A stretch of DNA of 64,000 nt, taken from positions 525,783 to 589,782 of the forward strand of contig ML978122.1 in NCBI GenBank assembly GCA_010015805.1, in the 5' to 3' direction. The notes below the pieces were generated by a model. It had not been told where the DNA came from. It did not search any database and was given only the letters and a program-made list of their open reading frames with translations. Shown one piece after another: positions 277-44,046 of the stretch; the first letter of the stretch is position 1; each line of letters opens with the position of its first letter. Source of the stretch: Rhizodiscina lignyota. Taxonomy: Eukaryota; Ascomycota; Dothideomycetes; Aulographales; Rhizodiscinaceae. A program made the position numbers and the translations under genes.

Positions 277-1065
277 ATGTCGACAATCATCCTTATTACT
301 GGTAAGAATAGTCTTGTGGTTGCATCATCGAACCAACGCTGAATTCCACCAGGAGCCAACTCTGGAGTTGGCTTTTCCTCCACGAAAGTCATCGCCTCCG
401 CTTCATCTGAGTACCACATTATTATGGCAGGACGCTCGCTCGAGAAGGTAGAAGCCGCGAAGGCTGAGATCGAGAAGACGGGCATTAAAGGATCTATCAG
501 CACCATACAGTTCGACGTCACGGACAAGTCATCTATTGATGCCGCTGTGAAGCAAGTCGAATCTGAATTCGGACACATCGATGTGCTCATCAACAACGCT
601 GGCGTTACTTCGCGGAATCCGGATCTGAAGGCACAGATTGAGGAGACCATGGCCGCAAATGTCGTTGGTCCTGCATTGGTCTCCCAGGGTTTCCAACCGT
701 TGCTATTCAAATCAAACAGACCGTACTCTATCTACGTGAGCAGCGGGCTCGGCTCGCTGGAAAGGGCCATAGAGCATCCGATTCCCAACGATCAGTGGAC
801 CGTATACAGGATGAGCAAAGCCGCCCTGGATATGCTCATGGTTCAAGAATACACGGCGCTGAGAGGAAAGGGTGTGAAGGTGTTCGCAATGTGTCCGGGT
901 CTAGTGAGATCAAACTTGAGAGGCAAGTCGGCAACGGAAGTTAGCGCTGGCGGTGCTGCTGGAGACCCAGACATCTCAGGACACACAATGTTGACCATCG
1001 TCCAGGGTGAGAGGGATGCAGATGCAGGACGTATTGTGCACAAGGATGGCACTTACAACTGGTGA
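277..1065 (+). CDS. Short-chain dehydrogenase/reductase (SDR)
   Basis: NAD(P)-dependent oxidoreductase of the classical SDR family, predicted cytosolic; substrate unknown. Exons are 277-301 and 353-1065, with a 51-bp GT-AG intron, giving 245 residues. The intron splits the cofactor motif: joining the exons gives TGANSGVG, the family's TGxxxGxG, at residues 8-15. The structural motif INNAG follows mid-protein, and the catalytic YxxxK appears as YRMSK, with an upstream VSSG serine. The length is typical for the family. The start is chosen because the 25-nt first exon supplies the first Rossmann beta-strand (MSTIILITG). It stands at the edge of the catabolic neighbourhood and could reduce or oxidise an intermediate, but nothing in the sequence fixes the substrate. 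Confidence 0.88.
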
Positions 1066-1707
1066 GGGAGAACCGATCGTCATTTCGGCGGCGTCGCCGC
1101 GAAAGTAACTATGCGAGCCTCATTAGCGGGCATGGATTGCTAACAATATCCGTGACACGACGACTTTATATGGAATAGTATTCTAATGGTTAAACTCCAC
1201 TCTGCCAACCGCAACGTTGATTCTGAGGAGATGAAGTTTATAATTGCACCGAATAGGCAATGCAGCTAATTGCGGCTCGCTATGATTATCCTGTTTTAGG
1301 CGCTTACAATGATTTTTAACGCTGTGCGTTTTAGCGTAAATATGTATGGATTTCTGCGACCAGGACCGGTCCATCGGGCATAATACGAAGAAATGCTGAT
1401 CAGAATGGGGCCACTCAACTGCCGAACGGTCCACCATCTTCTCCTATGAGGGTTAGCGTATTTCCTTAAATGGATAGGCGCAGTACGGAGTATGAGGTCC
1501 AGCTATCCTTCCGCCAAGTCGTCATCATGGAGAGCTTATTTGGAGAGCTTATTTGAACAGCTACCTACAAAACATTTGGATCCAATCGTGCCATTTCCTA
1601 TTATCCGTTGTCGCTAGAGCGTTGTGATCTTTCCTTCCCCGTCCCATTTTCCGTCCTCTCATCCAAATAGTTCTCATATCAACGGCCTTGTTTCCATATC
1701 CTCAAAC
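1066..1707. other. Intergenic, no gene seen
   Basis: About 640 bases between two same-strand genes. No convincing coding sequence is present. The short direct repeat GGAGAGCTTATTT occurs twice in tandem near 1530-1555. The last 100 bases are pyrimidine-rich, as in many fungal promoters and leaders. Confidence 0.5.
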
Positions 1708-2901
1708 ATGCCTCCTCCATTCCGAGCCGAGCATATTGGCTCTCTCATTAGACCCCAAATGCTGCTGGATGCTCGTAAAGCCGCACACATAGACCAAAAC
1801 TTCCAAGGCGTGTCACCGGAGATCAAGCAAGCTACCGAATCCGCCATCTCCGAAGTCGTGAAGCAGCAACTATCCCGCGATGTCCGCCCCCTCACTACTG
1901 GGGAGTTTGAACGTCATATCTTCTATGGTGGCTTCTTCGAGAACATTGAGGGTTTTGAGATTCGCGACCTTCCCATTCCGGAGGCATTCCGCACCAACTT
2001 TGCACCTACAGCACTCGCCAAGAAAATGGGTCACGACACTCGCGAGAGCCCAATTGCAACAGGAAAGATGAAGCGGCCTAAGAGTACGTATATGGACGAC
2101 TGGATGCACTTGAGGAATCTGTTACCGGAAGAGCAGTGGAAGGAGTGCAAGTTTACGATGCCACCTCCAACACAATCGCATATTGCTGTCAAACCTGGAA
2201 TGATTTTCACTCCCGAGTCTGGATACACGTCTGAGAAGGAGTATTTCTCCGATTTGGCAGAAATATATCGCGAGGAAATGGCAGATCTGTACGATGCCGG
2301 CCTCAGGGATATCCAGGTTGACGATCCGTATATGACATTTCTCCTGGCGGACTGGTACCTCGAAGGTTTACGTTTAGACGGCGAAGATCCGGATGATATC
2401 CTGGACATGTATATCTGGGCGCATAATGAGTGTCTGAAGAGACGTCCCGCAGACTTACATGTTGGCATCCATCTCTGCAGAGGTAACTTCGCTGGACACC
2501 ACTTCGCAAGCGGATCCTATGACAGAATTGCAAAGAAAATGTTCAGTTACCTAGATTACGACACTTATTATCTGGAATACGATACGGAGCGCGCTGGCGG
2601 CTTTGAACCTTTGAAGGATTTGCCTGTCGGGAAGAACGTGGTTCTCGGTGTGGTCTCTACCAAGACTCCGGAGCTGGAGGATGTCGACGAGTGCGTGGCG
2701 AGAATCCATGAGGCAGCTGATGTGATTGCGAACGGCCAAGGCAGGACCAGGGATGAAGTCTTGAGAGATATGGGCGTGAGCCCTCAATGTGGATTCGGCA
2801 GCTTCAGTCTGGCACAACCGATGACTGATGATCAACAGTGGGCAAAGTTAGCCCTCGTTCGGCAGATAGCGCAAAAGATATGGGGCAATGAGGCCAAATG
2901 A
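1708..2901 (+). CDS. MetE-like (cobalamin-independent methionine synthase C-terminal family) protein
   Basis: Stand-alone protein of 397 residues resembling the C-terminal catalytic barrel of cobalamin-independent methionine synthase (UROD/MetE-like superfamily). The start is the methionine before PPPFRAEHIGSL, because this RAEHIGS(L/Y)RP opening is the family's usual N-terminus; the frame stays open upstream but has no homologous sequence. Candidate zinc ligands are His255 and Cys257 (GIHLCRGN), a Glu in the YLEYD segment, and Cys361 (SPQCGFGS), matching the H-x-C, E, C pattern of MetE. The N-terminal folate-binding half of a true methionine synthase is absent. It is therefore probably a thiol-methyl or thiol-adduct transferase or lyase acting on another substrate. 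No intron is seen. Confidence 0.8.
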   Translation: MPPPFRAEHIGSLIRPQMLLDARKAAHIDQNFQGVSPEIKQATESAISEVVKQQLSRDVRPLTTGEFERHIFYGGFFENIEGFEIRDLPIPEAFRTNFAPTALAKKMGHDTRESPIATGKMKRPKSTYMDDWMHLRNLLPEEQWKECKFTMPPPTQSHIAVKPGMIFTPESGYTSEKEYFSDLAEIYREEMADLYDAGLRDIQVDDPYMTFLLADWYLEGLRLDGEDPDDILDMYIWAHNECLKRRPADLHVGIHLCRGNFAGHHFASGSYDRIAKKMFSYLDYDTYYLEYDTERAGGFEPLKDLPVGKNVVLGVVSTKTPELEDVDECVARIHEAADVIANGQGRTRDEVLRDMGVSPQCGFGSFSLAQPMTDDQQWAKLALVRQIAQKIWGNEAK

Positions 2902-2970: not shown

Positions 2971-5900
2971 TTACAGCTTAACGTAATCATTCAGCTGCCA
3001 GCCGTTGGTTTCTCTCATCTTCTTGTACCAGTTCTGCACATATGGGAGCGCAACATGTGGGCCGTATGGATCCTTCACCCATGGTGCTGTTGGTGGATCC
3101 AATGAAGTCTCTTCCTTGCAGGACTTGACCAACTCTTCAAGTGTGCCGCCACGGTTGTAAGTCAATTCGGCCCAGGCCTTCGGTCTCTGACTTCTAATTT
3201 GATTCCTCAGCTCCTCCGTTGCCCTTTCGTCAACGCTCCAGTCGCCGGGATTCACAATTACTCCGTAGTTCTTCTTAGCGCCTTCAAGAGTGACCAGGCG
3301 CCTGTGCACCTCCTTTGCGACCTTTTCAGCTGGACGAGTGAGCGGATCACCGAGCCCACCACCACCCCACGTGACCCATTCGAGGACGTCTCCTGGCTTG
3401 ACGTGGACATAGTCGCATTTAGAGGCAATAACCTCTCGATCGGGAGTTGGAGTGCCATAAGTGTTGTTTCGGAAGATCGATTTCACTGAGCGAGAGCCAG
3501 GCTCGCCACCATTTACGCCCCACTGAGACGATGTCAGCATTCAGAACAAGAGACAGAAATCATGCAGGAAGACTTACCGGTTTTGTAAACCATCTATCAT
3601 CATGAATGCTGACGTCTCCTTCAGACAGGAAGCGGTACATCGTCCTCTGCGCGTTACCTCCGCGGTAGAAGCCTGGTCCGCCAGAATCTGCTACTGACTC
3701 GTTTACCTCAATAATGAGAGGGAAGTACAGTTCAATATTCTCAGTGGGGACGGATTTGATAGCTGGGAACAAACAGTGGCAGTCCGGGCCATCACCAAGA
3801 GGTCTTGCCGGAACGCCTCCAAAGCCAATCTGGTACAGTAGGAACCACTCGCCATCGGGCTTGAAACCAGAGTAAAACAGATGAGGGCTGTCGGAAAAGC
3901 CAGCGGCGCTTCGGAAAGCCGGATTACGCTGGCCCATCAGGGCTTGAATGACGTCCATGGTACGTCCGAGCAGATGTGTTCGACAACTGATGGCTGCTGG
4001 ACGAATCGGTCGCAGAATGGTACCCTCTGGTATTCTGACGTCAATGAGCTCATGGAAACCATCGTTGACAACTGCGTGTGGGTCATAAACGGCTAGCAGG
4101 AAGTAGCCGATGAACATGCGGAACATCGTCGTGGACAGGTAGTAGTTGACAGATGAGTTCGCCTGCGGAGTCGTACCGTCCCAATCGAAAACCAGCTTGT
4201 GGCCCTCTTTGTACATGGCACATTGAATAGCCAGAGGGCCATTGCCGTGGCCATCATCGTCGATGAAATCAGTGAACTCGCTGCGCTCCGTACCAATCTT
4301 TGTGTCGATTAGGTGAGCGATGGCGGACTTGTTGCGCTCAAGAAGGTCCTCAGTAGCAGCTTGGTAAACTTCGTAGCCATATCTGTCGCAGAGTTCGCAC
4401 ACTCTGACTGCGGCAGTCTTGCATGCGGCCACGAGAGCAGTGAGATCGCTATCGAACCACTCCGGAATACGGCTGTTGCGGCGGAAGATCTCGACCATAG
4501 CTGAGTTGTATTTGCCCCGCTCATACAGCTTGACACATGGAATCTGAAGGCCGTCTTCGAAAATGGTCGTAGCGTTGACGCTCATTGATCCCGGGACCTT
4601 GCCTTGGACGTCTGTTTGAAGTGACAGTTAGCAGGAGGTTAGAAAGCAAAATCATGACATGAGTGTATGACTTTACCTGTCAAATGCCCGAAATTTGCCG
4701 CCCACCCGATAATGTTCCCCTTCCACCATATGGGAAGCAGGACAATAACATCGTTCAGATGAGAAACGGCGCCTTGGATCGCATAGGTGTCGTTCGTGAC
4801 AAAAATGTCTCCCTCTTCGATGGTCCCTTTCCACATTGCCAAGAACTGAGTGATGAAACTGCCAAACTGCCCAACGAGCATTTGCCCTTTCGTATTAGTA
4901 ATGACGTTGAATTCGTCTTGTTGATCTCTGATTGCAGGAGACATGGCGCAACGGAGCATGAGGGTATCCATCTCTCTGCGAATCGAGCCAAGAGCGGATG
5001 CGACAAGAGTAGAGATGAGCGGCGAGTCCTTGACAAGCTTTATAGCAGATTCCGAAGTGTGGATGACCTCTTCTTGAAACTGTTGGTGTTCTGAATCTGC
5101 AGGCCAGATGAGTATGTTGCCCACGTTGTCAACTTCGCCCACATAGCCAGGCAGGATCAAGGTGTTCGAGTCCATCTCAGTTACGATGCAAGGTCCCTTG
5201 AGCTTGATCCCTTGCTTCGTGACCTTTGGCCTGTCCCAAATTGTGGCTTCGACACTCTCTCCGTTGTAGTAGATCGTTTGCTTGCTGACGATGGCGTCGC
5301 TTGGTGGTTCTGAGCTGGAACCATGCTCGATCGTCTGAATTTGGACTTCGCTTGAATCATCCACGACCTTAACACGGAGGCGCATCATCTCGATCTCGGC
5401 AGTCTCGAGTGAGAAGTTGAACTGCTGCTCATGCACTACTCCGAAGTATCCGCGTAAAGCCTTCAGCATCTCAGGAGTGTCAAGCTCCAAATCAGAGTGT
5501 GAAAAGTCTACAGTGAGTGATGTTGCTTGTCCTTTGTACCGCATGTCTGCCTGATAGAAGACTTTAAGCGGGGCAGTGTCGTTTGCTAGAGCTCGCTTCA
5601 TGATATCGATGCAGCTCCTCCGTAGGTCACCCAGAGTACTGCCCAGGTCTTTGTTGGTTACTTGGGAGAATGTCTTGATATAAGTGCATGATTGCTCGTG
5701 AGACATCTTCGTCGTTGCATCTCCTTGTGCGCAAAGAACTCCAGGAGAAGGGGGTACGATGACAGGGAATGAGCCCAAGAGCTTGCCAACAGCGTTGGCA
5801 TGGACGGGTCCGGCACCACCGAAGGCAACGAGTGCGAATTTGCGAGGGTCATAGCCCTGCTCGACGGAGACGAGACGCAGTGCGCCATGCATGGACTCAT

Positions 5901-7299
5901 TGACCAAGTCAATAATACCCTCAGCTGCAGCATATTTCGACATGTTCATTCTCTTCGCAACAGCCTCAACAGCGACAGTCGCGGCCTCAACGTCGAGCTT
6001 CATTTTGCCTCCAAGTAATGTTGATGGGAGATATCCCAAGACCAGATTAGCATCCGTCACAGTTGCCTGAACTCCGCCCTTGCCATAGGCAGCGGGACCC
6101 GGATTCGCACCCGCACTTTCGGGACCAACACGGAGTGTGTTGGTTAGTTCGTTGTAGACTGCGATAGATCCTCCGCCTGCTCCAACCGTGCGCACATCGA
6201 CGCAAGGAGCTCTGACTGTCAGACCTCCAACAATAGTCTCGCGGCGGACAACGGGATTAGAGCCAGGAATCAGAGCACAGTCTGTAGAAGTTCCACCCAT
6301 GTCCAAGGTAATGAGGTTCTTATATGGGGTATTCTGCGATAAAACATGGGTAACTCCTTTGACGCCTCCAGCGGGGCCACTCATCAGCATGTTAACAGGC
6401 AGTTCTCCTGCCAAATGTGTCGAGGTCAAGTCGCCATCAGACTTCAGGATGCGAATAGTGTCCGTATCGTCCGCAAGCATCTTTGACAAATTGCTTACAT
6501 ACTTCTTCACGATTGGCTTGACGATGGCGTTGGCAGCGGTGGTAACTGTTCGCTCGTACTCCTGGATCTCTGGAAGCACATCGGTGGAGGTAACAACTTC
6601 CACCGAAGGTCCAAACTCTTCATGGAGTATCTCGCGGATCGCGTCCTCATTGGTCTTATTACTGAACGAATTGAGCAAGCTCACAGCGATTGCCTCTGGC
6701 TCCTGGCGCTTCAAGTCCGCCAAGCTTGCCCTGAATTTCTCCTTGTCTATCGGCCTGATCACCTCTCCATGGATCGAGGTCCGTTCCGGAGCATCGACTG
6801 TACGCTCCAATGGGACTATTGGATCCGGCTGCTGCCAGTTGATCCAGCCTCCAAGGCCTCCGGGAATCTGTGAGCGACGGAAATTCAAGATATCTTTGTG
6901 ACCAGATGTAACGACAAGCCCAGCTTTGGCACCCTTGCCTTCGAGAATGGCGTTCGTTCCAACTGTTGTTCCGTGATGGATATACCTAATCGGCCCTTTA
7001 ATGATACATTCAGATCATGAGCGCTGGAATAGCCGCGGCATACTCAAATTTCCCATCCCAGCCCTCTAGCTCTTTCAATTGCGCTTTGACCTGGTCGACA
7101 CCATTCTTCACGCCAATACTTTGATCTTTCGTGTCTGTGAGGGTTTTTGCTCGCACTGTGCGTCCTTCGGGGGTGATCACACAAACATCTATAAAAGGCG
7201 GATTTAGCTCAATTCTGGCTGGTGAAGTGTCTGTATGAACAAACCTGTGAAGGTGCCCCCAACATCCACGCCCAATCGATACCCTTTTGGAGCCGCCAT
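2971..7299 (-). CDS. 5-oxoprolinase / N-methylhydantoinase-type HyuA-HyuB fusion
   Basis: ATP-dependent amidohydrolase opening 5-oxoproline or a hydantoin-like ring; cytosolic. Five exons (7299-7245, 7188-7044, 6985-4677, 4611-3578, 3522-2971) join in frame to 1364 residues, close to eukaryotic 5-oxoprolinases (about 1290). The N-terminal HyuA half starts with the phosphate-binding GVDVGGTFTD, split by intron 1. It continues with HHGTTVGTNAIL, split by intron 2, and DMGGTSTDCALIPG. The HyuB half follows in the same polypeptide, with FVTNDTYAIQGAVSHLNDV and a C-terminal glycine-rich region (WGVNGGEPGSR, TWGGGGLGDP). Introns are 55-65 bp. It is transcribed divergently from the amidase at 8102 across a promoter with GATA-type sites. 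Sequence alone does not decide between oxoproline and another cyclic amide. Confidence 0.9.
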
Positions 7300-8101: not shown

Positions 8102-10299
8102 ATGTCTGTCGTGTTCCTCAATAAGGGTCCTCCCACAGGTGAGCAGTTCACTTGGACGTAATCTCAATGGATTGCTGACATGAGCAGTTGATGCTGAGAC
8201 TTTGAAGGGAGTCGCCGCGCATAGCAACATTACACTTCGTCCTCAAGATGAAGAGCACTACCGCTATTTGCTAGACTCTTTTGATGCCACAGCTCAGCAA
8301 GTTGCTGATTTGCCCGCATGGACAAACCCAGAGTTGCTTCCTGAGGCTGGAACACTTCCCAGGAAGTACTGGAAAGAATCTAAAAATCCGCTGAATGCGT
8401 GGAGTCACAGAACTGAGATCAAATCATCGTCGCCAGAGAACAACAAGCTCGCTGGCAAAACATTCGCGGTCAAAGACAATGTCTCAATTGGCGGCCTTCC
8501 AATCACTGGCGGGACGTTTCCGGAGTAAGTCCTGTTATGATCTTTAATCATATCTACAAGAACGTCCTAATGCTATCTACTCGTTAGTTGTTTCAGTTTG
8601 TTGAATTGCAAAGTGTTCAGTAGCAAGGTTCAAGAGCTATGGGTCAGACTGGGGTCTTTATCTATGAGCTGTACAACATGTTTGAGGAGAACGAAGATGG
8701 TTCCAGTGCTAATGTAATTCACGTGATCAAGGTTGCTCGTGGGAAAATCAGAGTACCCAATCTCGGAGATTGATGCTGTAGTCGTGTCCCGGATTCTCCA
8801 GGCCGGAGGGATCATAGCAGGCTCGGCAACATGTGAACATTTCTCCATGTCTCCGCTATCATGGACGAGCGCCAATGGCCCTGTCCACAATCCGTGGAGA
8901 AAAGGATATACAGCCGGCGGCAGTAGCAGCGGTCCAGGAGCTTTGGTAGGTGCCGGTGTGATTAAGGCATGGAGAAAGCGTCATGGGCTGCCGCCCATTG
9001 ATGATGAACTTGGGCCCCATGTGGACATGGCAATCGGAGGTGATCAGGGCGGCAGCATCAGAATTCCGGGAGCGTACAACGGAATATACGGACTCAAACC
9101 GACGCACGGTTTGGTGCCATATACCGGAATTCTTTCCCTGAATCCCATGATCGACCACACGGGCCCAATGTGTGGCACCTTGGAAGACACAGCAGCTATG
9201 CTTGGTGTCATGGCAGGCTACGACGGTATTGATCCGAGAATGACGCCCGAATCGCCGAAGATGGATGAAGTCAAGGATTATTCCGCCATCCTGGCAAACT
9301 TTATATCCGAGAAGAAAGAGAAAGGGGAGTGGACGCCGGAGAAGTCTGGCGTCGGACTGCGTGTTGGAGTCATCAAAGAAGCATTCGAGGTCTTGGGCCT
9401 GACAGATGAAGTGAAGGCGATTGTGAAAGAAGCAGTCGAACGGTTCAAGTCAATCGGAGCTACGGTTGAGGAGGTTTCTATTCCTATGCACACAATTGGT
9501 CCCTCTATTTGGTATGTCCAGCTTGTTCATGCCCAAAGTGATCAGTTCCTTACCTGTGATCAGGACGATTGCAACGCGGATCGGTATTGCGACCCACGGC
9601 TTCCAGAACCATCCGCTTCTCCTTCTCAACCATCCCCTCCCTGGGATCAGGTAAGGCTATGTCTAAATCATACTACAAGAAATGTTCATGCTGACTTTGT
9701 AGTCCTCCACCACTTGACCAGAAGTCGTACGAGATTCTCACCAAGCACAATCCGGCTGCTGTCAATGTGATATTCAATGCGGACTTCCTGCTCCACAACC
9801 GGGAGCCGAATCTACAAGCAAAGGCCATGATGCGTACGTAATCCCGTCCTTATACGTCTGGGTGACATACTCATGTCTGCGAATTAGATGCTATCCAGCT
9901 GCGAAAAGCATACGACGACGTGCTAGCTAATTACGACGTCCTCGTGACTCCAATGAATCCGACTACGGGCTCAATGCACCCACAGTACGATCAGACTGTT
10001 GGAGAGAAAATGGCACCATCAATCGGAGGTACTTTGAACTCATGCCAGTTCAATATCACCGGACGTACGTTCCCTCTCTACATTCAGTTTTGATGATTAT
10101 GAAAATCCCACGAGACTAATAATTCATAGATCCTGGGCTTGCATTCCCAGTAGGGTGGGGAAATGTCGAGAATGGCAAAGGCAAGATGCCCATCGCTATG
10201 CAGATCGTTGGCAAACGGTTCGAGGACGACACTGTGCTCAAAGCCGCCGCAGCGTGGGAGGTTCCAGGCCTGGGTCTCGATTCTTGGGATGGCAAATAA
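8102..10299 (+). CDS. Amidase-signature family hydrolase (first of two)
   Basis: Hydrolyses a C-N amide bond to release ammonia or an amine; substrate unknown. Seven exons (8102-8138, 8188-8524, 8732-9511, 9564-9650, 9703-9833, 9888-10064, 10130-10299) join to 572 residues. The Ser-cisSer-Lys triad is complete: the lysine in FAVKDN, the cis-serine in GGSSSGPG, and the nucleophile in GGDQGGSIRIPGAYNG. A trailing MQIVGKRFEDDTVL segment is typical of fungal amidases. Intron 2 is long (207 bp), and its acceptor is chosen because it restores the frame into LLVGKSEYPISE. The start fits a short conserved leader spliced by a GTGAGC donor. It is paralogous to the amidase at 17193. Confidence 0.88.
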
Positions 10300-17192: not shown

Positions 17193-18971
17193 ATGTCTGT
17201 CTTTTCAGTGACACCTAAGGATGGTAATCCTGTCTCTGCGGCAGTCCTCGATGACTGCTGCAAGACGTTGGGGGTCACTGTCAAAGAAGATGAGCACGAG
17301 GACTACCGGAAGCTGCTCGCAGTCTTCCACGAATCGGCTGAAGAGCTGATGGCCCTGCCAGGTAATGATCGAAAGTCCAATTGTAGAATAATTTAATACT
17401 GACGATGTAGATTATGAACCTCCTGTGGACCTCGAGAGATTCCCTCGCAGAAACCTTCATTTCCCCGACAAGAAGGATAACGAATATGGTGCCTGGGCAT
17501 GGAAGTTCGACCTCAAAGACATTAGGCCTTCGATGACCAAGGGGCTATTAGCCGGGAAGAGACTTGCTTTAAAGGACAACATAGCTGTCAAAGATGTCCC
17601 AATGCTTGTTGGTACAGATTTCTTCAAGGGTTTTGTGCCGGTGAGATGCAATGATTATACTTGATATCCCCCGAATCCAAGACTAATAGGTATGAATTCA
17701 GACCACCGATGCTACTGTTGTCACGCGCATTCTCGAGGCCGGGGGTCACATCTTGGGCAAGGCCGTATGCGAGAACATGTGTCACAGCGGGACATCACAC
17801 TCGGCGGCCACTGGTGTGGTCGAGAATCCACATGTGAAAGGTTACAGCTCAGGAGGCAGTTCAAGTGGCAGCGGTGTGCTTGTTTCGTTGGGCGAAGTGG
17901 ACATGGCAATCGGTGCAGACCAAGGCGGCTCTGTCCGAATACCCAGCTGCAATTGTGGCATTGTTGGACTCAAGCCGACATTCGGGCTCATTCCCTACAC
18001 AGCTTGCGGCTCGAATGAGCCAACCAACGACCATCTGGGCCCAATGACGAAATCCGTGCTCGATAATGCGTATCTTCTTCAGGCAATTGCAGGCAATGAC
18101 AACATCGATGATCGAAGTTTCGCTGCTCCGCATCCTCAGAATATACCCAGATACGGTGATAATCTGGCGAGACGCCCCAATCCCACGAATCTGAAGGGCA
18201 TGCGGTTTGGCATCATCTCTGAGTCTCTTACAAGTGCAGTCGTAGATCCTCGCGTAAAGGCCACCATCCTCGCAGCTGCGGAGACATTCAAGAAGCTCGG
18301 TGCAGAAGTCATCGAGGTCAGCATCCCAATCCACAAGAAAGGGACTGCGATCTGGACGTAAGACCATAAATTTACTCCGATCATATGGCCACACACGCTG
18401 ACATGATATGAACAGTGGCGTCAGCAAAGTGGGCGGCTACCTTGCCAAGTCATCTGGCCCGTTCGGACGCCGTGGCTACCAAATGATCGATCTGCAACAG
18501 CGCATGTGGCCATTGAGGCAGGAAGGCTGGGACAATGCATACGTCTCGACGAAGAACATATACTTGAACGGAGTCTATGCTCTGACTGCATTCCCCGAAT
18601 TATTATCGAAGGCAACGAATCTTTCCAGGCAACTCAGAGACTCGTATGACGCCGTTCTCAGCGACGTCGACCTCTTGCTCACTCCAACACTACCTTATGT
18701 CGCGACCAGCCACAGCGCTCCCGATGCCACTCCACTGGACCAGATTGCGAAGCAAGTCGGGCTCACCAGCTCGACCGCTCAATTCAATCAGACTGGGCAC
18801 CCTGCACTTACGCTGCCATGCGGCATGCTGGAGGTCCTAGAAGGACCCGAGAAGGGTTCTGGGAAGAAACTTCCGGTGGGCTTGCAGATCATCGGAAAAT
18901 GGTGGGATGAAGAGACTGTGTACAAAGCAGCATATGCATGGGAGCTGTCCAGCGATTGGAAGAATTTGTAA
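17193..18971 (+). CDS. Amidase-signature family hydrolase (second of two)
   Basis: Amide hydrolase, cytosolic, substrate unknown. Exons 17193-17361, 17411-17640, 17702-18357 and 18416-18971 join to 536 residues. The catalytic triad is complete: the lysine of LALKDN, the cis-serine of GYSSGGSSSGSG, and the nucleophile of GADQGGSVRIPSCNCG. The C-terminal KLPVGLQIIGKWWDEETVY segment is typical. It shares overall order with the amidase at 8102 but is clearly diverged, with different spacing, so the two probably act on different amides. Introns are 49-61 bp with standard donors. Its place opposite the cyclic-imidase-like gene suggests it cleaves the amide left after ring opening, as HxnN is thought to do in nicotinate breakdown. 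That role is inferred. Confidence 0.9.
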
Positions 18972-21102: not shown

Positions 21103-21954
21103 ATGTTTTACGAACCGGGAAAGACGGAGCATGGCCTCCCCTATGATCCATTCAAAGTAAGCTCAACAGTAATGTTCTTACGTCTTATTACTCCAATTTA
21201 TATTGCATCATGATTGTTTACGCTGGCTGGCTAGGCATGCGTCGTCCCACGGCCCATTGGCTGGATCTCCACAGTTTCCTCCTCCGGCATATACAACCTA
21301 GCGCCGTTCTCCCAGTTCAATAATCTCACCTTCGACCCTCCATATGTCATGTTCTCCGCAAACCAAACTACCACAAGTATGCGGAAAGACTCCGTCGTCA
21401 ATGCTGAATCCACGGGAAAGTTCTGCTGGAGCTTGGCGACCTGGGATCTGCGAGAGCAGGTCAACATTTCCAGCGAAGAAGTGCCCCCAGACGTCGACGA
21501 ATTTGAGCGCGCAGAGCTTGAGAAAGAGTGGAGCGCGGTGTTGCCCGAAGGCAAAGAGGGCAAGGTGCCAATGGTCAAGGCCAGCCCGGTGAAATTTGAG
21601 TGCTTGTATCATTCCACAGTGCGGTTACCTGGTAACCCACCTATGGGAACTGTAGATGTCATAATTGGCCGTGTGGTGGGGATACATGTGTCAGACGACG
21701 TGATAACAGATGGGAAAGTGGATATCACCAAGACACAACCGATTGCCAGATGTGGATATTATCAGTATGCGGTAGTGAGGGAGACGTTCGACATGATCAT
21801 ACCGGGCATGAATGAGTTGATTAGGAGTGGAATGGAGGGTAGTGCGAAGAAGAACAAGGCAGCAGCAGAAGGATCTCAGATTGCTGAAGTCGGCATCAAT
21901 ACTGCGACGAATGGCCAATCGAAACAGCGCACTCTAGGCGCTCCAAAGGTATGA
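21103..21954 (+). CDS. Flavin-reductase-like FMN-binding split-barrel protein (DIM6/NTAB family)
   Basis: FMN-binding split-barrel protein of 257 residues. Exons 21103-21156 and 21235-21954 are separated by a 78-bp intron. The family signature is VVPRPIGWIST directly after the intron, followed by NLAPFSQFNNLTFDPPYVMFS, which forms the flavin-binding strands. The mid-protein E-rich loop and a conserved KFECLYHSTVRLPGN segment are usual in fungal members. The lysine-rich C-terminal 35 residues look disordered. Such proteins reduce flavin for partner monooxygenases or carry out unknown reductions. It is the last member of the catabolic neighbourhood and may support an oxygenase, but a direct link is not shown by sequence. 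Confidence 0.85.
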
Positions 21955-33221: not shown

Positions 33222-35621
33222 TCAACCACCTGAGATAACCAGTTTCGCAGCCCTGATGAACGCCTGAATCTTTTCGATACTTTGCTGTCCATCCTCTTCA
33301 ACACCACTGCTCACGTCCACACCGGCTATCCTCGGCTCAAGGTCCCCAAGCTGTGCTAACACATCTCTTACATTACCTGGATTCAGGCCGCCAGCAAGCA
33401 GCACATTAACACCTTCATCTTTCTTCAGCGCCTCTTTAACCATAGTAAGATTGAGAGATGTTCCCGTGCCGCCAATACCTGAGTCAAAGAGCGCAAGTGA
33501 ATGATATCCTCTCAAGCCCATACCAGGTTCTCCTGGAGCGAACCTTCGGATGACCGGTACCGGAATAAGATTTGCCCATTCCACAGGTTCAGAGCCGTGC
33601 AGTTGGACGACATCGAGGTTCAGTAGTTTCTGCTGCTCCAGAATATACTCCAGCGGCTGATCCAGAAATACGCCGACCAGGACTGCCCGGTCTGGATGAT
33701 GGAAGAAGTTACTGGCAGTATACACGTTCCAGTTCGACGCCACGCCTCGGGGATTACTCAAAGGTTTCAATTTGTTTGTGCGATGCGGTTTGGGAGTAGA
33801 GTGTACTGTCTCAGAGATGGCAATGGCGACTTCTCTTGAGACGCAGCGCTTCCGTCCAGTGACAAGGATCATACCAATGGCATCTGCGCCAGCCTCTATA
33901 GCAGCTTTTGCTGCCGCTGGTGAACGAGTGCCACAAATCTTGACAAGCAGTTCCTGTCGTTGCTTTGTATCAGGTTTGGAGTCCCCACCAAGAAGCTCGT
34001 AGATGAATTGGGTCGTGTCTGCAGCCCGCATTAGAGCCTCTCCCACAAGCACAGCACCGACACCATTCTTCTGATAAGGTTCGACATCTTTCGGGCCGGA
34101 AATTCCACTCAAGGCGCACACGACAGTGTCCTCCGGTACCAAGCTCATGAGGCGGCTGGTGGTATCAAGGTCTACCTCGAAGTTGGTCAAATTTCGATTG
34201 TTGACGCCGATGACTTTTGAGCCCAAATTTACGGCGATGCGCATTTCATCGACCGTGTTCACTTCAACTAACGGCTCCATGCCCAGAGCCTGAGAGTAGA
34301 GGTACAACGATTTCAGGGTTGCCTCGTCCAGCATCTTTACGATGAGGAGAACAGTGTCGGCTCCAGCAAGTCGTGCTTCCAGAATTTGGTATTCATCGAA
34401 GATGAATTCCTTCCTCAGAACTGCCGGCCTATTTCGCATTCCTTGCAGGCTTTGACGAACTGCCCGAAGGTCGTCGATGCTTCCTTTGAACCACTCAGGC
34501 TCCGTGAGGACAGAGATGACACTGGCTCCTGCTAAAGCATACGTCCTTGCTTGTGCTGGAGCACATGCTGTGAGCGAGATGATGCCTTTTGAGGGAGATG
34601 CGCGCTTGATCTCAGCCATTAGCGATAGCCGATAAGGTGACTGCTTCAAACGCTCAGGGAAGGATATTTGCGGAGGCGCAAGATTCAAGTCGTACGACGC
34701 TTGGAAATCCGACGGTCGTTGTGATGGGATTTGCTTCTGGGCTTCAACTGCGGCTCTGCGATGATCGTAAATGCGCTCCAGGATGGAGGTCTTCTTGTCG
34801 GAGGTACTGGACCCATTGGATTTAGTTGTGGCGCCATCGACTCCATTTGCTGCACTCGCAGATTTCGATGTCGCCTGATTCAAGCGCTCATTCTCGGCCC
34901 AGGTTCCGCCCTTCATTTTGAGAAAGTTCTTGAGCATTGTGCGCCCCTCAACCGTCAAGATACTCTCGGGGTGAAATTGGACACCTTCGACCAAAAGTTC
35001 TTTGTGACGGATGCCCATAATAACGCCCTTACCGCCATCCGGACCCGCTGCTACCCAGGATGACACTTCTAAGCACTCCGGCAAGGTCGGATGCGTTCCT
35101 GCCAGAGAGTGATACCTCGTAACAGGGATGTCCTGTGGTATGCTCTCGTAGACGCCTTTTCCATCATGCCGGAGCGGAGATGTCTTGCCATGCAAAATCT
35201 CTCCGGTCACGTCCACATTACCGCCAAAAACTTCATATATGCATTGTCTGGATATATAGTGAGACAAATAATCGAAGAAAGGGCTGTTGGAAAATACATA
35301 CTGTCCCATGCAAACGCCGAAAACTGGAATCTTCCCGCTGAAGTGCGCAATTGCATCTTTGCTGATTCCCGCATCGGTTTCAGGATGGCCGGGACCTGGG
35401 CTAATGACAAGCTGAGTGGGTTTCAAGGCAATGAGTTCATCCAGAGTGATCTCATCGTTCCGGTATACGGATACTGTAGCTCCTTCGAGCACGAAGTATT
35501 GGTACACATTCCAGGTGAAGGAGTCATAATTGTCAATCAGCACAAGATTCGACGCAGTAGCGACCGGCGCTGCTGCAGTCGGTTGGACTGCAGTCTGGTC
35601 TATAAGGTCCAATGCCGGCAT
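33222..35621 (-). CDS. trpC: Trifunctional tryptophan biosynthesis protein TrpC (GATase-IGPS-PRAI)
   Basis: Carries three activities of tryptophan synthesis on one chain: glutamine amidotransferase for anthranilate synthase, indole-3-glycerol-phosphate synthase and phosphoribosylanthranilate isomerase. Exons 35621-35302 and 35247-33222 give 781 residues. The amidotransferase has [20 protein letters not shown] and the nucleophile in GVCMGQQC, which only forms after removal of the 54-bp intron, plus GVQFHPES. The synthase has [27 protein letters not shown] and GVNNRNL. The isomerase has [12 protein letters not shown] and the C-terminal GVDVSSGVE. The start is the ATG before PALDLIDQT. The intron keeps the reading frame open and has no stop, so intron retention would yield an inactive amidotransferase but intact downstream domains. 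Confidence 0.95.
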
Positions 35622-36198
35622 TCTGATGGATGAACGACAGACTGAGAGGTTATGGCAAAAATGAGACGAGCAATGGAAGATCCCAAAGCTGTAAGGGGGC
35701 AATACTCATCGGGCTTGGCACGTTTAAAAAGACAAATTCAACTCGGCGACCGACTTTCCACCGCGGTTATTCCGACATCGATCCGACGCATGCAGGGGCA
35801 AGTGCGCCACTTCAAGCCCTGAAGCCACAGGTACATAAGCCCAACCATCAACCAGCCGTCTCTCATTAGGGTATTCATCACTCACTTACGTCCTGCCACG
35901 CAACATGCACGGCGTATGGCGGACGATTCCATACACCTGCCTTAGCTCATGCTGTCTGCAGCCGCCGGACAGGCGTAATCAGTGGGCTCGATCGGGAAGG
36001 TTAGAGTCGCTTCTTCCCAAATTTGTTCCGTCTGACGAGAGGCAGCTGTGGTAAGTTGCGAGATTGCAGATCGCGTAAGAGGAAAAACCCTGACATTCCT
36101 TTACTTCTACGTCTCGCTTACAAGTTCTCGTTCCCAATATTTCCGTCGTCAAGTTATCTTCTAAACTATAACTTGGTTGAAGGAAGTCTTTAATCGCC
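35622..36198. promoter_or_regulatory. Divergent promoter between trpC and LanC-like gene
   Basis: 577 bases with no gene. Both neighbours read outward. No TGACTC general-control (Gcn4/CpcA) site was located with confidence. Confidence 0.35.
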
Positions 36199-37374
36199 AT
36201 GCCGAAGCTCGCTTACATGAAGAACGACCCATCGGTCCTCTTAACAGTCTCGCAGACAGAAGTGGATGATGATCTAATTGAACTGCTCACCAGTGCGGTT
36301 CAGAAATTCCCACCGAGTGACGCCTGGAAGTCAGTAAGAGTTGGTGTTGGTGGGATATACTGCGGTCGGACAGGAGTGGCGTATTTGTTCATGAATGTCG
36401 ACAAAACAAGGCCCAATCTCGAAATCGAAGGAAAACGTCCAATCCAATGGGCCGCTGCATATTTGTCTGGCGACCGAGAGCCGGAGCCGATAACAACGTT
36501 GTCATGCGGGATCTTCAACGAGGAACTCAGCTTCTGCGCTGTAGCCGCAGCCTTCTACAAAGACACTGCATATGTGCAGAAGCTTCTCAAATACCTAGAT
36601 GAGATTGTTTCTTCGAATGAGGGCGCATTTGAGTACTGTTATGGACGTGCTGGACTTCTCTACCTGCTTCGTTTGGTCCGGTCGTGGTTCCCCGAATCAG
36701 CAGAACTCGTTAACCCAGGGATGGACTCGGTAATTGAGAATATAATGGCGAATGGCCCACCATGGATTCTTGACATGGGAGGAACGAATGACTTCGGGAC
36801 TGTACGGTACGATTTTGTCGGGCCAGGGCACGGTCGGATGGGCATAATCGTACAAATATTGCTGAGTAATTCTACGTACGCCTCGAAACTTGAATCGGCG
36901 CTCATTGAGCTGCTGGATATCCAACAGGAGGACGGAAACTGGCCAGACCAGTGGCCCGGATCTCAAGCGTCTGAAAAGAACCGGCACCTTGTCCAGTGGT
37001 GTCATGGAGCCCCAGGAATGGTGCAGTGTCTCGTTGCCATTCGTGAGTTTTTCCCACACCTGCAATCGAGAATCGATGATTCGATTGCGGAAGGAAGACG
37101 AATTACTTGGGAGAAAGGGCTCTTGATCAAAGAGCCCAACTTTTGTCACGGGACTACTGGAAATGCCTTTGCATTTCCGCCTGGCGAGAAAAGAGACCAT
37201 TTCTTGGCGCACACTACCGAGCAAAGAGTGCAAGAAGGATATGCCGCTGGAGCCATTGAGAATTGTGATTATGGTATAACGTGGAGTGTTGCTTTTGGAG
37301 GCATAAGCCGAGCAGTCGGCTGGCTGTGGAGGGATAAAGAGCGAGGCTGCTACCTTGGCTTTGATGACGTCTAA
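36199..37374 (+). CDS. LanC-like (lanthionine synthetase C-like) protein
   Basis: Single-exon protein of 391 residues with the alpha/alpha-toroid LanC fold. Repeated G-rich turn motifs mark the barrel: GVGGIYCGRTGVAYLF, EYCYGRAGLLYLL, DFVGPGHGRMGIIVQIL, QWCHGAPGMVQCL and NFCHGTTGNAFAF. The zinc ligands expected from bacterial LanC and animal LANCL proteins are present: Cys in WCHGAPG, then the Cys-His pair of FCHGTTG. Eukaryotic LanC-like proteins add glutathione to dehydrated Ser or Thr residues in damaged proteins; that is the best guess here. No precursor peptide or LanB-type dehydratase gene is next to it, so lanthipeptide production is not supported. Confidence 0.9.
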   Translation: MPKLAYMKNDPSVLLTVSQTEVDDDLIELLTSAVQKFPPSDAWKSVRVGVGGIYCGRTGVAYLFMNVDKTRPNLEIEGKRPIQWAAAYLSGDREPEPITTLSCGIFNEELSFCAVAAAFYKDTAYVQKLLKYLDEIVSSNEGAFEYCYGRAGLLYLLRLVRSWFPESAELVNPGMDSVIENIMANGPPWILDMGGTNDFGTVRYDFVGPGHGRMGIIVQILLSNSTYASKLESALIELLDIQQEDGNWPDQWPGSQASEKNRHLVQWCHGAPGMVQCLVAIREFFPHLQSRIDDSIAEGRRITWEKGLLIKEPNFCHGTTGNAFAFPPGEKRDHFLAHTTEQRVQEGYAAGAIENCDYGITWSVAFGGISRAVGWLWRDKERGCYLGFDDV

Positions 37375-38643: not shown

Positions 38644-39816
38644 ATGGAGGGCCTCACGAGAACCCTTCCTGCTTCATGGTATCGCAGCGAGCCGCTGTAT
38701 AAGCTCGAGCGGAGAGCTGTTTTCTTGAAGGTCTGCTTCTACTTCGCTTCCTCAGAGATGCGTTATAGTAGTATGCTAACTCAATGGTCCAGGCTTGGTA
38801 CCTACTCGGACCCGTCACGAAATTCACGAAAGTTGGAGAGGATGTTTCGTACGAGATGGCGCAGGTCAAGTTGACCGTTCGACGTTCTTCGGAGGATGTG
38901 AAGAGCATAAAGGTCTATGCGGACGCCGATGTAGGTCTCTCTCGCGCCTAAGGGATAAAAGTGCAGGGCGATTGAGCTGTTATCGTAGGGTTCTGAGCTG
39001 CGGAGCCACTTGACGCGCACCGGATTGCTCTTCTCTACCATTTCGGACGAAGCTGGACCCTTCGAGGAGTTCTTCCCGGACCTGGAGAAGCTTCTTGATC
39101 GCGTTGACTTCACAAAGCTTCCGCACAAGAGGAGCATCAAGTATCCAGGCGTCTTCAACTGGAAAACAATGTGAGTGTAGATGCATAGAACGTGAATCTC
39201 GCCGCTGACAGACGAAGGGTCGATGGATATCAGGAGTGCCTTCACTGCCAGTACACTCACCCAAGCTTTTCCGTGTACTACCCGCCGACAACGTATGCGG
39301 TAAAAGACTTCCAAAACTTTTCACAGCACATTGCAGATCCGGACAAGCCTGACGATGGATTGTTCTTGTACTTTTTCCCCAACTGTACTTTGAATGTGTA
39401 CGGCGGCGGCATGTCCTCATTCCGCGTCTGTCCAACCGAGGATCCCAATGTTACGCGGATGGAATTTGACTATTTCCATACGACGGACTCCCAAGAGGAG
39501 TTTGAGAAGTATTTTAAGTTCGTCCGGCAGGTCGCAATGGAAGACTTCGAGCTCTGCGAGAAAGCCCAAGAGAACCTACGAATTGGAATTTATACGGAAG
39601 GCATCCTGAACCCCAACAAAGAAAATGGCGTCTCTCGTACGTACACTAATTCGCTTGTGTGGACTCAACTGACTTCCGCATATAGACTATCAAAACAAAG
39701 TTCTCGAGCTCGTGACTGAGCAGTACAAGAAGGAAAAGGAGGCTGCGGAACCATCTATGCAAGCAGTTCCGCAGGAGATCCCCGTTCAGCCTGTTGTGGA
39801 ACCTACAGGCGCATGA
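38644..39816 (+). CDS. Rieske-oxygenase-family catalytic subunit lacking the Rieske cluster
   Basis: Choline-monooxygenase-like ring-hydroxylating oxygenase alpha subunit in which the [2Fe-2S] domain has lost its cluster. Exons 38644-38730, 38793-38930, 38989-39170, 39218-39636 and 39686-39816 join to 318 residues; family members with a Rieske domain run near 400. The opening ASWYRSEPLYKLERRAVF and GPVTKFTKVGEDVSYEMAQ are family-like. The stretch up to PGVFNWKTM has no Cys and no CxH or CxxH pair. The mononuclear-iron site is intact: bridging Glu and His-x4-His in QECLHCQYTHP (39234-39260), and Asp in MEDFELCEKAQ (39543-39545). Intron 1 has an unusual GTCTGC donor but a perfect TGCTAAC branch site. 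It needs electrons from another Rieske protein; the next gene is the obvious partner. Confidence 0.85.
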
Positions 39817-40197
39817 TAGCTGTCAACGTAGTGTTTGTGCCGTTGAGTCGATGATCCCGTGGTTCTTTCTAGTCCTTCATCCACGAGTCTGAGCATCTAA
39901 TTTACGTTTCGTGCGACAGAAAATACTAGACCTTGTGGTGTTCCTGCTCTTCCTCCGCTCTCTGAATTTCCATCACGTACTTTATGGATCGCACTTCCAA
40001 ATGCGGTATCCGTCTTGGCATGAGTAGTCAACAGGACCCTGGCTCAACGGTGGAGCTAAATTTGTCGATCGTATCCGCGAATCACACACTATCTTTACGT
40101 TATCTCCCACCATCTTTTTGTTTAAAGCATCTAGAAGCCTCTTTCCTACCCGCTTGTAGCTTTGTATTATCTTTCAGTTCCTGTCGATCCGCCCATC
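39817..40197. other. Spacer between the two oxygenase subunit genes
   Basis: 381 bases between the stop of the first and the ATG of the second same-strand gene. It has no coding content and is long enough for a separate promoter. Confidence 0.5.
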
Positions 40198-41682
40198 ATG
40201 TCGGACCTTATCGCCCTCCAGCCTCACATGATCTACATTCTCTTTGTTGTCTGCATCGCTTCAGTTTCATTGAACATCTACACGTATTTCGACAAGAAGA
40301 AAGCGAGTTCGCCTACAAATACCACTCCACTTCTACCGCAGACCGACGATGTTGACGTTCACGTGACTAAAGAGCCAGAACTCCCATCAGGTTGGTGGAG
40401 AGATGAATCACAATTCCAACTCGAGCGCCGCGCCATCTTCAGCAAGGTAGTGCGCCCGGTAAATTTGCCGTTGCTGCCACTGACCCATATAGACCTGGAT
40501 TTGTGTCAGCCACCGTAGTCGCTTTGGAAAGCCCGGCGACTATGTCACCTTTGAGGTCGCGGGCTTCCCATTCTTTCTTATTCTCGGGAAGGATAGTGTT
40601 GTGCGAGCATTCCATAACGTGTGCCGCCACCGAGCATACAGTGTAACCAAGAAGGCGGCTGGATCGTCTCTTGTGCTCGGCTGCAGATACCACGGCTGGA
40701 GTTACGATACAAGGGGCCGACTCACGAAGGCACCGGAGTTTGACAAAGTACCTGGCTTCGACAAGGCTCAGAACAGTTTATTCGAAATCCATGCGAGAGT
40801 CGACGCCCACGGTTTTGTCTATGTCAATTTGGACGCAAGCGAAGAAGCCGGTGACGGCGAATTGTGGGAAGTGACAAAAGTCGGCAAGCCGACAGAGATC
40901 AACCACGATTCTTGCTGGCTGCACTGCTGGGAGTTTAAAGGAAAGTTCAATTGGAAGGTTACAAGTAAGCAGAGAACCAAACTTTACTAGCTCTGGTCAA
41001 CACTGATACGCAGGAAGCTCTTAATGTTGAGGGGAATACAGACGATGCATCACCTACGTTCGGTGGCCTTCCGACAAGTCGTTTCTTCCGAGCCCTTGAA
41101 TCGTGTGGATACAGCATGACAGGCCAGCTACGCTTCTTCCCTTTGGCCACGGTCTATACGAAGAACGGCAGTCCTTTTTGGTACAAGATAACCTTTTCCC
41201 CAGACTCACCAACGCAGACAACCGTGTGGTGCGATGTGTACTCCACAAAATACACGAATGCATTCCGCTTCGAAGGCGCTGTCAAAGATGGCCTTGAGAA
41301 GGAGATGAAATCCAAGATCCACGCCTTGGAGGAGCAATACGCAGAACTGGAAGCCTCGAACACGTTCCAGGAAGAGAGCGGTACGTTCTGTAATCAGCTG
41401 AAAGTGTCTTTGGAAGCCGCGCTAATTTCCTTTCCCTTCAGGGATCCAAGCAACGATCACTACCATGGTCAAAGAGCATTTGAAGAAGGAGAGAGCTGCA
41501 GGGGAGCAGATCCATCCCGCTGCCGTACAGCAGTGCAGGAGCTCTTCCTTTGCACAGGCAGAGAAGCGTAAGTGGAGCTTGCGAGATCCCCTCGGCACGT
41601 TACTAATTCCGTAATAGTATGCCAGGAGCTTGATGCTGCTGGTGACAAATATCGACCGCGTGAAGACAGCTTGGCTTGGTAA
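40198..41682 (+). CDS. Membrane-anchored Rieske protein lacking the oxygenase catalytic iron site
   Basis: Rieske-oxygenase-family protein of 424 residues. Exons are 40198-40446, 40493-40964, 41018-41380, 41442-41567 and 41618-41682. Residues about 10-29 (HMIYILFVVCIASVSLNIY) form one membrane span, followed by a Lys-rich stop and a Pro/Asp-rich linker. The Rieske domain is complete: CRH (Cys 40622, His 40628) and CRYH (Cys 40682, His 40691), with GWSYDTRGRLTKAPEF. After FNWKVT the expected E-C-x-H-C-x4-H is missing; the sequence continues TTLNVEGNTDDASP. The distal D-x-x-x-C-E-x-x-Q segment is replaced by a Glu/Lys-rich helix. It keeps the sheet part (FFPLATVYTKNG) and seems to be an electron-transfer or scaffold partner of the gene upstream. 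Confidence 0.85.
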
Positions 41683-42686: not shown

Positions 42687-44046
42687 ATGTCCAAACTCCT
42701 CGAGAAGCTCCATCTCCATCCAAAGCAGCACTCTAGTACCGATACACCCACATCAACTTCTCAGCCGACCTCATCCGAGCAATCTGAATCCGCAATGGCA
42801 TCCAATCTCCCAAAGACGTACAAGGCCGTCGTTATCGAAAAGGCCGGTGCCCCATGGACGATCAAAGATGTTGAACTCAAGATGCCGGAGCATGGCCAGA
42901 TCCTCATCAAAGTTCACGCTTGTGGTGTCTGCCACAGCGATGCAGCTGCTCAAGCTGGTCATATGGGCCCTCGGTGAGTTAATGGCTCTCTAATTCTAAA
43001 GGCCCATTGTCCGTTTAGTTCTGCAAATTGTGAAAAGTCTCCAAGATATCATTAACATAGACTAACTTTTCATATTAGCACGAAATTCCCTCTCATTCCT
43101 GGGCACGAAGTCATTGGCACTGTTGCCGCGGTTGGCCCCAATGAGCGTAAATGGAAAGAAGGCGAGCTCGTGGGTGGACCTTGGCATGGTGGTCACGACG
43201 GCATATGCAAGACTTGCATGAGAGGCGATTACCAGATGTGCGACACCGAAGAAATCAACGGCGTTACAAGAGATGGCGGTTACGCACAGTACTGTATCCT
43301 TCGGTCTGAAGCTGTTGTTCGCCTACCTGAGGGAATTGACCCGGCTGAGTACGCTCCACTGCTCTGGTAAGCATCTCCAACCGTACGAAGACGAAAATGC
43401 GAAATGCTCATTGATTTTCAGTGCTGGTGTGACAGTCTTCAATGGTATACGCAAGCTCAACATCCGACAAGGTGGCACCATCGCGGTTCAAGGTCTCGGA
43501 GGTCTCGGCCACTTAGCCCTCCAATATTCACGCAAAATGGGTTACCGCACAGTGGCGCTTTCTTCCTCGGATGCGAAGCGTGACTTTGCCATGAAGTTGG
43601 GAGCCACGGACTACGTCGATGGAAGCAAAGAGGATGCGGCAACAGCACTTCAGAAGCTTGGTGGAGCCGATCTAGTGGTTATTACCGCACCAAACCCGAC
43701 GATTATGGGCCCATTGCTGAACGGCTGTGCACCAAGAGGGAAAGTTCTGATCCTTGCTCGTACGTATCTCCGATTTCCTTGATGCTAGCTTCGGTTCTAT
43801 GAACTGACCATTGCTACAGCCGTCGGTGATGTTCCTGTCAGTACGATCGCAATGATTGGAAAAGGACTCTCAGTCCACGGGTGGCCGTCGGGTCATGCCG
43901 TCGATTCCGAGGATGCCATTGCTATGGCGCAGGAACAAGGAATCAAGGTCATGATTGAGAAGTTCCCCTTAGAGAAGGTTGCCGATGCGGTGCAGCATAT
44001 GCTGACCAGTAAGGTGCGATTCCGGGCTGTTTTGACAATGGATTGA
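42687..44046 (+). CDS. Zinc-dependent alcohol dehydrogenase (MDR family)
   Basis: NAD(P)-dependent, zinc-containing medium-chain dehydrogenase. Exons 42687-42973, 43079-43366, 43422-43759 and 43820-44046 join to 379 residues. An ATG at 42795 with a better start context would give 343 residues and matches the usual family N-terminus (MASNLPKTYKAVV), so the extra 36 Ser/Thr-rich residues may be untranslated or a targeting extension. Catalytic zinc ligands lie in CGVCHSD and GHEVIG. The structural-zinc lobe reads GICKTCMRGDYQMC, with the usual first Cys replaced. The Rossmann motif is GLGGLGHLALQ. It follows the split oxygenase pair on the same strand and could oxidise an alcohol made there; this is positional inference only. 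Confidence 0.88.

Follow-up and report, generated by a model that had tools for sequence, protein, structure and literature searches.

A putative two-chain, membrane-tethered Rieske oxygenase encoded by adjacent genes in the fungus Rhizodiscina lignyota

Two adjacent genes, each carrying one of the two metal sites of a Rieske oxygenase (RO), lie in a 64,000-nucleotide stretch of the Rhizodiscina lignyota genome (assembly GCA_010015805.1, contig ML978122.1, positions 525,783–589,782), hereafter called the window. Gene 1 (38644–39816) and gene 2 (40198–41682) are both on the plus strand and spliced in frame, with a gap of 381 bp between them, and these coordinates bear out the initial annotation of the locus. 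The window is eukaryotic DNA, in which conserved frames are interrupted by small GT-AG introns. Neither gene alone encodes a complete two-domain RO alpha subunit, the two metal sites being on separate chains. Our analysis indicates that the genes probably encode two obligate subunits of one hetero-oligomeric, membrane-tethered RO.

Gene 1 encodes 318 amino acids (aa) in five exons separated by four GT-AG introns. Exon 1 (38644–38730, MEGLTRTLPASWY...FLK) ends at an intron position common to a second gene pair, found on contig NYXK01000188.1 (locus L006, described below). The splice model and the comparison with this second pair also define exon 2 (38793–38930), which holds the N-terminal portion of the former Rieske domain without its ligands, and exon 3 (38989–39170), a linker up to NWKTM. 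Exon 4 (39218–39636) encodes the catalytic domain with Y140, the bridging E142, H145, H150 and D245, as assigned by Pfam, alignments and a fold match to the RO CntA, and exon 5 with the stop codon (39686–39816) follows the top-scoring of several in-frame acceptors. Within the ranges searched there are 48 in-frame splice models, and all 12 of those listed retain the iron-site stretch. The iron-site motif ECLHCQYTHP (39234–39263; E142, H145 and H150) is the single EC.HC match in a six-frame pattern scan of the window; a looser catalytic pattern also matches at 17771 and 22537, both without the EC.HC form. Above the curated Pfam cut-offs, gene 1 matches PF00848, the RO catalytic domain, only (1.5e-23), and it has no C.H...C..H pattern, that is, no Rieske cluster ligands. 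Among solved structures, stachydrine demethylase and CntA form its top group (2.7e-9 to 4.4e-9), the matched part being the iron-site half, with a weak match in an N-terminal strip. A model of the iron-site exon built with 44 relatives had a pLDDT of 75.6, and all nine of its structure matches with E ≤ 0.001 were to CntA (TM 0.68–0.73). This strip can be aligned with its counterpart in gene 2 at 42% over 45 aa, and the earlier statement that each gene shows a remnant of the part it lost therefore stands for gene 1.

Gene 2 has five exons and encodes 424 aa in the model used, one of 32 in-frame splice models. Exon 1 (40198–40446) encodes an N-terminal hydrophobic helix (about residues 11–29) and a linker; a donor at 40450 is in frame too and was favoured by a crude splice score, and the donor at 40447 was used, giving FSK-TW like the orthologue. 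The hydrophobic stretch is conserved, with a Kyte-Doolittle value of 2.04 over 19 residues and of 1.99 in the orthologue on the second contig. Exon 2 (40493–40964) encodes the Rieske domain, which is the only domain of gene 2 above the curated Pfam cut-offs (PF00355, 4.8e-17), with no reductase domain. Residues 63–203 match CntA (6y9c), the best solved relative, at 2.2e-29. The ligands C127, H129, C147 and H150 (CRHR...CRYH, 40622–40693), identified by pattern scan and alignment, form the single Rieske motif in the window. The donor just after NWK is at 40965 (GTAAGC, phase 1), and its position and phase are common to the second contig. The acceptor of this second intron is 41017 or 41041; the splice score favoured 41041, and 41017 was used, without support from the orthologue. 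Exon 3 (41018–41380) is fast-evolving and is the expected place of the iron site, exon 4 (41442–41567) rests on the splice model and the comparison with the second contig, and exon 5 (41618–41682) encodes a C-terminal CxEL...W followed by the stop codon. The orthologue ends alike; this tail, a short motif, resembles its counterpart, unlike the region after NWK. None of the 14 in-frame models listed contains an iron site, and the pattern scan found no EC.HC in gene 2. The initial annotation had given gene 1 the bridging acid and the iron site without Rieske ligands, and gene 2 a CxH...CxxH motif and a membrane anchor without the iron triad; both descriptions agree with these data.

Ordinary ROs consist of three identical chains arranged head to tail, and the electron travels from the cluster of one chain to the iron of its neighbour. 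Since the electron crosses a chain interface, the two metal sites need not share one chain. The quaternary-ammonium RO group, with CntA and stachydrine demethylase, is the closest match to the pair in structure and sequence, CntA being the best solved relative of gene 2 and also the top fold match for gene 1's iron-site exon. Unlike the pair, CntA bears both sites on one chain. The CntA study gives C86, H88, C106 and H109 as cluster ligands, H208, H213 and D323 as iron ligands, and E205 as the residue that bridges across the subunit interface, with no E205 mutant active (PMC7948474). The same study places the metal sites 44 Å apart within a chain and 12.2 Å apart across the interface (PMC7948474), so a chain without a cluster can be served by a cluster-bearing neighbour. 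By alignment, CntA E205, H208, H213 and D323 are gene 1 E142, H145, H150 and D245, and CntA C86, H88, C106 and H109 are gene 2 C127, H129, C147 and H150. The pair thus has the bridging Glu of CntA and also the aromatic residue two before it: CntA Y203, reported there to bind the quaternary ammonium group (PMC7948474), is Y140 in gene 1 and Phe in the orthologue. CntA Y295 is F219 in gene 1, and carnitine itself is therefore not implied. Our best guess is that the enzyme would act on some quaternary ammonium compound, though not carnitine, or on another N-methyl compound.

The second pair came from a search of prokaryotic genome contigs with gene 1, in which the best 80 of 514 relatives (595 stretches) were retained. 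NYXK01000188.1 was by far the best among the matches listed (E 3e-85, the next being 3e-30). It is a 70-kb contig filed under a deltaproteobacterial metagenome-assembled genome (MAG). The contig carries spliced genes, neighbours with 2EXR domains, a family that we take to be fungal, and, below the cut-off, BTB domains; from the spliced genes and the 2EXR neighbours we read it as fungal DNA that probably contaminates a bacterial MAG. It holds an orthologue of gene 1 (alignment identity 61%) beside an orthologue of gene 2 (37%), in divergent orientation with 687 bp between the start codons and with the same losses as the window pair. Three intron positions are common to the gene 1 orthologues and at least two to the gene 2 orthologues, including the phase-1 donor just after NWK. 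When window frames of at least 60 aa were compared with the 70-kb contig (E ≤ 1e-5), matches occurred only at genes 1 and 2. As the order of the two genes differs as well, the pair appears to have remained linked through changes in its order and neighbourhood. Gene 2 adjoins gene 1 at both loci where gene 1 was found outside archaea. The collections searched were prokaryotic genome contigs, plasmids and viral contigs, none of them fungal, and four scans of the viral contigs found no relatives. Two further observations concern this MAG. It contains seven Rieske matches, one of which is the gene 2 orthologue; the other six fall within long open frames. A gene of the amino-acid permease family (579–1880, minus strand of NYXK01000188.1) is situated about 2 kb past the end of the gene 2 orthologue, which fits the quaternary-ammonium reading but proves nothing.

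Constraint was compared domain by domain between the two pairs, with only identities and nonsynonymous change used, because synonymous sites are near saturation. Gene 1 is 64% identical at the N-terminus, 29% in the Rieske remnant (28 columns), 62% in the linker, 70% in the catalytic domain and 10% in the last 21 residues. Gene 2 is 15% identical in the anchor and linker, 71% in the pre-Rieske stretch, 69% in the Rieske domain, 29% at residues 199–238, 14% after NWK and 31% in the C-terminal tail. Nonsynonymous differences per site were 0.20–0.21 in both retained domains and 0.63 in gene 2 after NWK. Constraint runs opposite in the two chains, each protein being held to its own half.

A parallel case was found in haloarchaea. 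Of 29 plasmid records matching gene 1, 12 cover at least 80% of it, and the matches include haloarchaeal proteins labelled as SRPBCC family. One of these, from Haloterrigena turkmenica, was aligned and is a Rieske-less RO; another plasmid match (H7, Haloterrigena salifodinae) resembles a further Rieske-less copy. None of the 888 plasmid records matching gene 2 covers at least 80% of gene 2. Eight of the 79 prokaryotic loci (the best 80 relatives minus L006) are without a Rieske pattern, and seven of the eight are haloarchaeal; the other, L015, was set aside, its frame running off the contig end. The family to which Natronococcus jeotgali belongs is represented by 125 genomes, and a match at E ≤ 1e-30 occurs in 35 of them: 19 with intact copies only (all 19 checked in sequence) and 16 with a Rieske-less copy. 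Each of these 16 also has a Rieske-bearing RO, although that of G033 is divided between contig ends. A further, class-wide draw covered 391 genomes with at most five candidates scored in each; 72 had a match, and sequence checking was confined to those counted. Taking together the 16 genomes of the family, three from the class-wide draw and three first loci, a Rieske-less copy is accompanied by a Rieske-bearing RO in the same genome in 22 of 22 cases.

Six haloarchaeal genomes carry a complementary split: Natronococcus jeotgali, Natronococcus sp. A-GB7 and four relatives (L127–L132; L017, L024). The genes form tandem pairs on the same strand, with the Rieske-less gene downstream and 0.55–0.67 kb between the open frames. 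All six Rieske-bearing neighbours have lost the ECDHC motif, together with both His, at a gap of four residues. The Asp iron ligand is lost in four of the six Rieske-only proteins and still present in the other two, which counts against a simple series. Pairs at least 10 kb apart, some on opposite strands, occur in five other genomes (G008, G030, G033, G034 and G036), which also counts against a simple story. In other haloarchaea an intact RO is found with a Rieske-less paralogue (L133–L143, L153–L155, L014, L023 and L031). The proteins of the six complementary pairs were trimmed at an MTQ/MSQ start. In the Rieske-only proteins, the median ratio of nonsynonymous to synonymous change (dN/dS) was 0.11 for the Rieske part and 0.62 for the catalytic part (15 pairs). 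The corresponding medians were 0.32 and 0.085 for the Rieske-less proteins (15 pairs) and 0.22 and 0.17 for 23 intact ROs (253 pairs). In both split forms the ratio is thus at its lowest in the domain that the protein has kept.

The haloarchaeal and fungal pairs are alike in the complementary loss on two adjoining genes; they differ in gene order, the Rieske-less copy being the downstream one in haloarchaea, in the Asp ligand, lost in only part of the Rieske-only proteins, and in their place in the tree. In a tree of the catalytic domain, the haloarchaeal ROs are a fully supported group that excludes the fungal proteins, and we therefore take the two splits to have arisen independently. Rieske-less copies group partly with the intact copy of their own genome, with six label changes on the best tree, three of them forced by well-supported branches. 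Such grouping within genomes points to repeated loss or gene conversion, and there is no clean single series of states. Judged from sequence, the haloarchaea nevertheless present the same end state as the fungal pair, with intermediates.

These data suggest the following scheme. After a duplication, the presumed origin of the pair, the cluster would have disappeared from one copy (gene 1), which retained the iron site, and the other copy (gene 2) would have retained the cluster without the iron site and come to carry an N-terminal membrane helix. The proteins would assemble into a mixed ring, in which the gene 2 cluster (C127, H129, C147 and H150) would lie beside gene 1 E142, with E142 bridging to the iron that H145, H150 and D245 coordinate. 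Productive interfaces would be limited to those at which the cluster of a gene 2 chain adjoins the iron site of a gene 1 chain. The substrate would be oxidised or demethylated at the membrane with electrons from a reductase, and the anchor of gene 2 may hold the complex there, perhaps, as a speculation, near a membrane-bound reductase. A mixed ring would explain both the N-terminal strip shared by the two chains and the constraint lying mainly in each chain's own half. Complex formation, stoichiometry, electron path, substrate class and the membrane concerned are all inferred here. At the sequence level there is strong support for the view that the two genes encode complementary chains of a single oxygenase, and this part of the initial proposal of a hetero-oligomer stands on the conserved pair, the opposite constraint and the haloarchaeal parallel. 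Its other part, a dehydrogenase at 42687 as partner, was not supported, there being no match to that gene on NYXK01000188.1.

Several observations weigh against two obligate subunits. Outside archaea there are only two instances, one of them the MAG contig of inferred fungal nature. The region of gene 2 after NWK, taken alone, was not recognised as a catalytic domain by profile comparison (probability 0.8% and E 0.066 with bacterial ROs; 2.6% and E 0.017 with the gene 1 pair), and its poor model, built from two sequences (pLDDT 57.4), had no structure match with E ≤ 0.001 and matched no RO. The modelled strands followed by a long helix merely resemble those of gene 1. The profile alignment of whole gene 2 with bacterial ROs does extend past NWK (columns 57–344). 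This region was thus not confirmed as a catalytic relic by profile or fold comparison, and the remnant ascribed earlier to gene 2 is unproven. The 30 open reading frame (ORF) pieces of the window that were scanned (29 of the 132 listed pieces of at least 105 aa and one of 104 aa) included no recognisable RO-type reductase. Lastly, the fungal gene 1 proteins are on a long branch, and the tree does not fix their nearest two-domain relative.

Split ROs are already known from two systems. NdmC, a non-heme iron monooxygenase, has no Rieske cluster of its own and is proposed to draw on an additional one carried by NdmD (PMC4408171). As a Rieske-less iron subunit it resembles gene 1, and the initial annotation was right to name it as a precedent. 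In the 7-methylxanthine N-demethylase NdmC/NdmD/NdmE, however, the cluster is fused to an FMN/NADH reductase and a GST-like subunit is needed, whereas the sole recognised domain of gene 2 is the Rieske domain, accompanied by a membrane anchor. Among the same 30 ORF pieces no GST-like NdmE-type partner was found. A different arrangement modelled on NdmC, in which the gene 1 protein accepts electrons from whichever Rieske or ferredoxin donor is suitable and gene 2 is a membrane carrier among others rather than a subunit, appears unlikely. Gene 2 is poorly conserved after NWK and may have left the ring, as such an exchange would allow. Against this, gene 2 has no reductase domain, its N-terminal and Rieske parts are those of a CntA-type RO alpha subunit, and the pair remains adjacent though no other frame match connects the two loci.

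The closer eukaryotic case, missed by the initial annotation, is the chlorophyllide a oxygenase (CAO) of Micromonas pusilla, which is on two polypeptide chains (PMC9615114). It is like the fungal pair in being a eukaryotic Rieske oxygenase on two chains, and unlike it in belonging to another RO subfamily with a plastid pigment substrate, the best solved matches of the pair being CntA-type. The Rieske site and the iron site of the two-chain CAO are reportedly divided between the chains, as Kunugi is said to have found in 2013. The fungal CMO-like oxygenases have an N-terminal Rieske domain and a C-terminal CMO-type domain (cd08883) according to PMC6157903; these fungal relatives differ from the pair in having both domains, as described. 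The Rieske passages of an Aspergillus sydowii paper (PMC8087790) mention no split enzyme, and a paper on Cercospora resistance proteins (PMC4608573) has no bearing on the question. No split fungal or haloarchaeal RO was recognised in searches of an open-access library without most subscription journals, the hits being judged mostly by title and the start of the abstract, and within this scope the earlier statement that no described fungal case was known holds.

A reading of both genes as pseudo-enzymes with new roles in binding, scaffolding or regulation, and with no oxygenase activity, is very improbable. Each chain alone is catalytically incomplete, as that reading supposes, but the metal site that each has kept is complete and falls within a strongly conserved domain on both contigs, and exactly complementary ligand sets would not be expected. 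As to a hidden Rieske or iron-site exon, the window holds no spare Rieske or EC.HC motif and the introns, at 43–62 bp (77 bp with acceptor 41041), are too short for a domain; such an exon is therefore rejected, in line with the initial annotation. The least probable reading is that the models are wrong, the assembly is in error or the genes are pseudogenes, the true genes being ordinary two-domain oxygenases: apart from the choice between acceptors 41017 and 41041 in intron 2 of gene 2, it is contradicted by these intron lengths and motif counts and largely refuted by an independent contig with the same truncations, common intron positions and open frames.

Other genes of the window were scanned for domains. 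A long frame at 33225–35705 contains a GATase-IGPS-PRAI domain series, which we take to be typical of TRP genes in filamentous ascomycetes. Upstream of the gene pair, a LanC-like protein is encoded in one open frame (36181–37371, plus strand; PF05147, 7.4e-27). About 17 kb upstream of gene 1 there is a flavin-reductase-like frame (21235–21951, plus strand; PF01613, 1.9e-15), which has no counterpart on NYXK01000188.1 in the frame comparison (E ≤ 1e-5). Hydantoinase/oxoprolinase A and B domains occur in one gene region with amidase frames nearby (3563–7014, minus strand; 8727–9767 and 17696–18968, plus strand).

In ROs two neighbouring subunits together make up the active site, and on that ground we propose, with somewhat more confidence than doubt, that ROs, once duplicated, have repeatedly broken up into obligate two-gene enzymes. 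One case would be the fungal pair, with the electron-giving subunit moved to the membrane, and haloarchaea would show states along the route: one intact gene, an intact gene with a Rieske-less copy, and the complementary split. If the pair is indeed one enzyme, fungi possess a two-gene, membrane-tethered Rieske oxygenase, whose halves annotation would file as a Rieske protein and as a ring-hydroxylating or SRPBCC protein, and expressing either half alone would fail. The presence of intact, intermediate and split forms in related archaea would allow a direct test of how a homo-oligomer becomes an obligate hetero-oligomer. For studies of inter-subunit electron transfer, the pair would also offer a naturally occurring case where the chain with the cluster and the chain with the iron can be altered separately.

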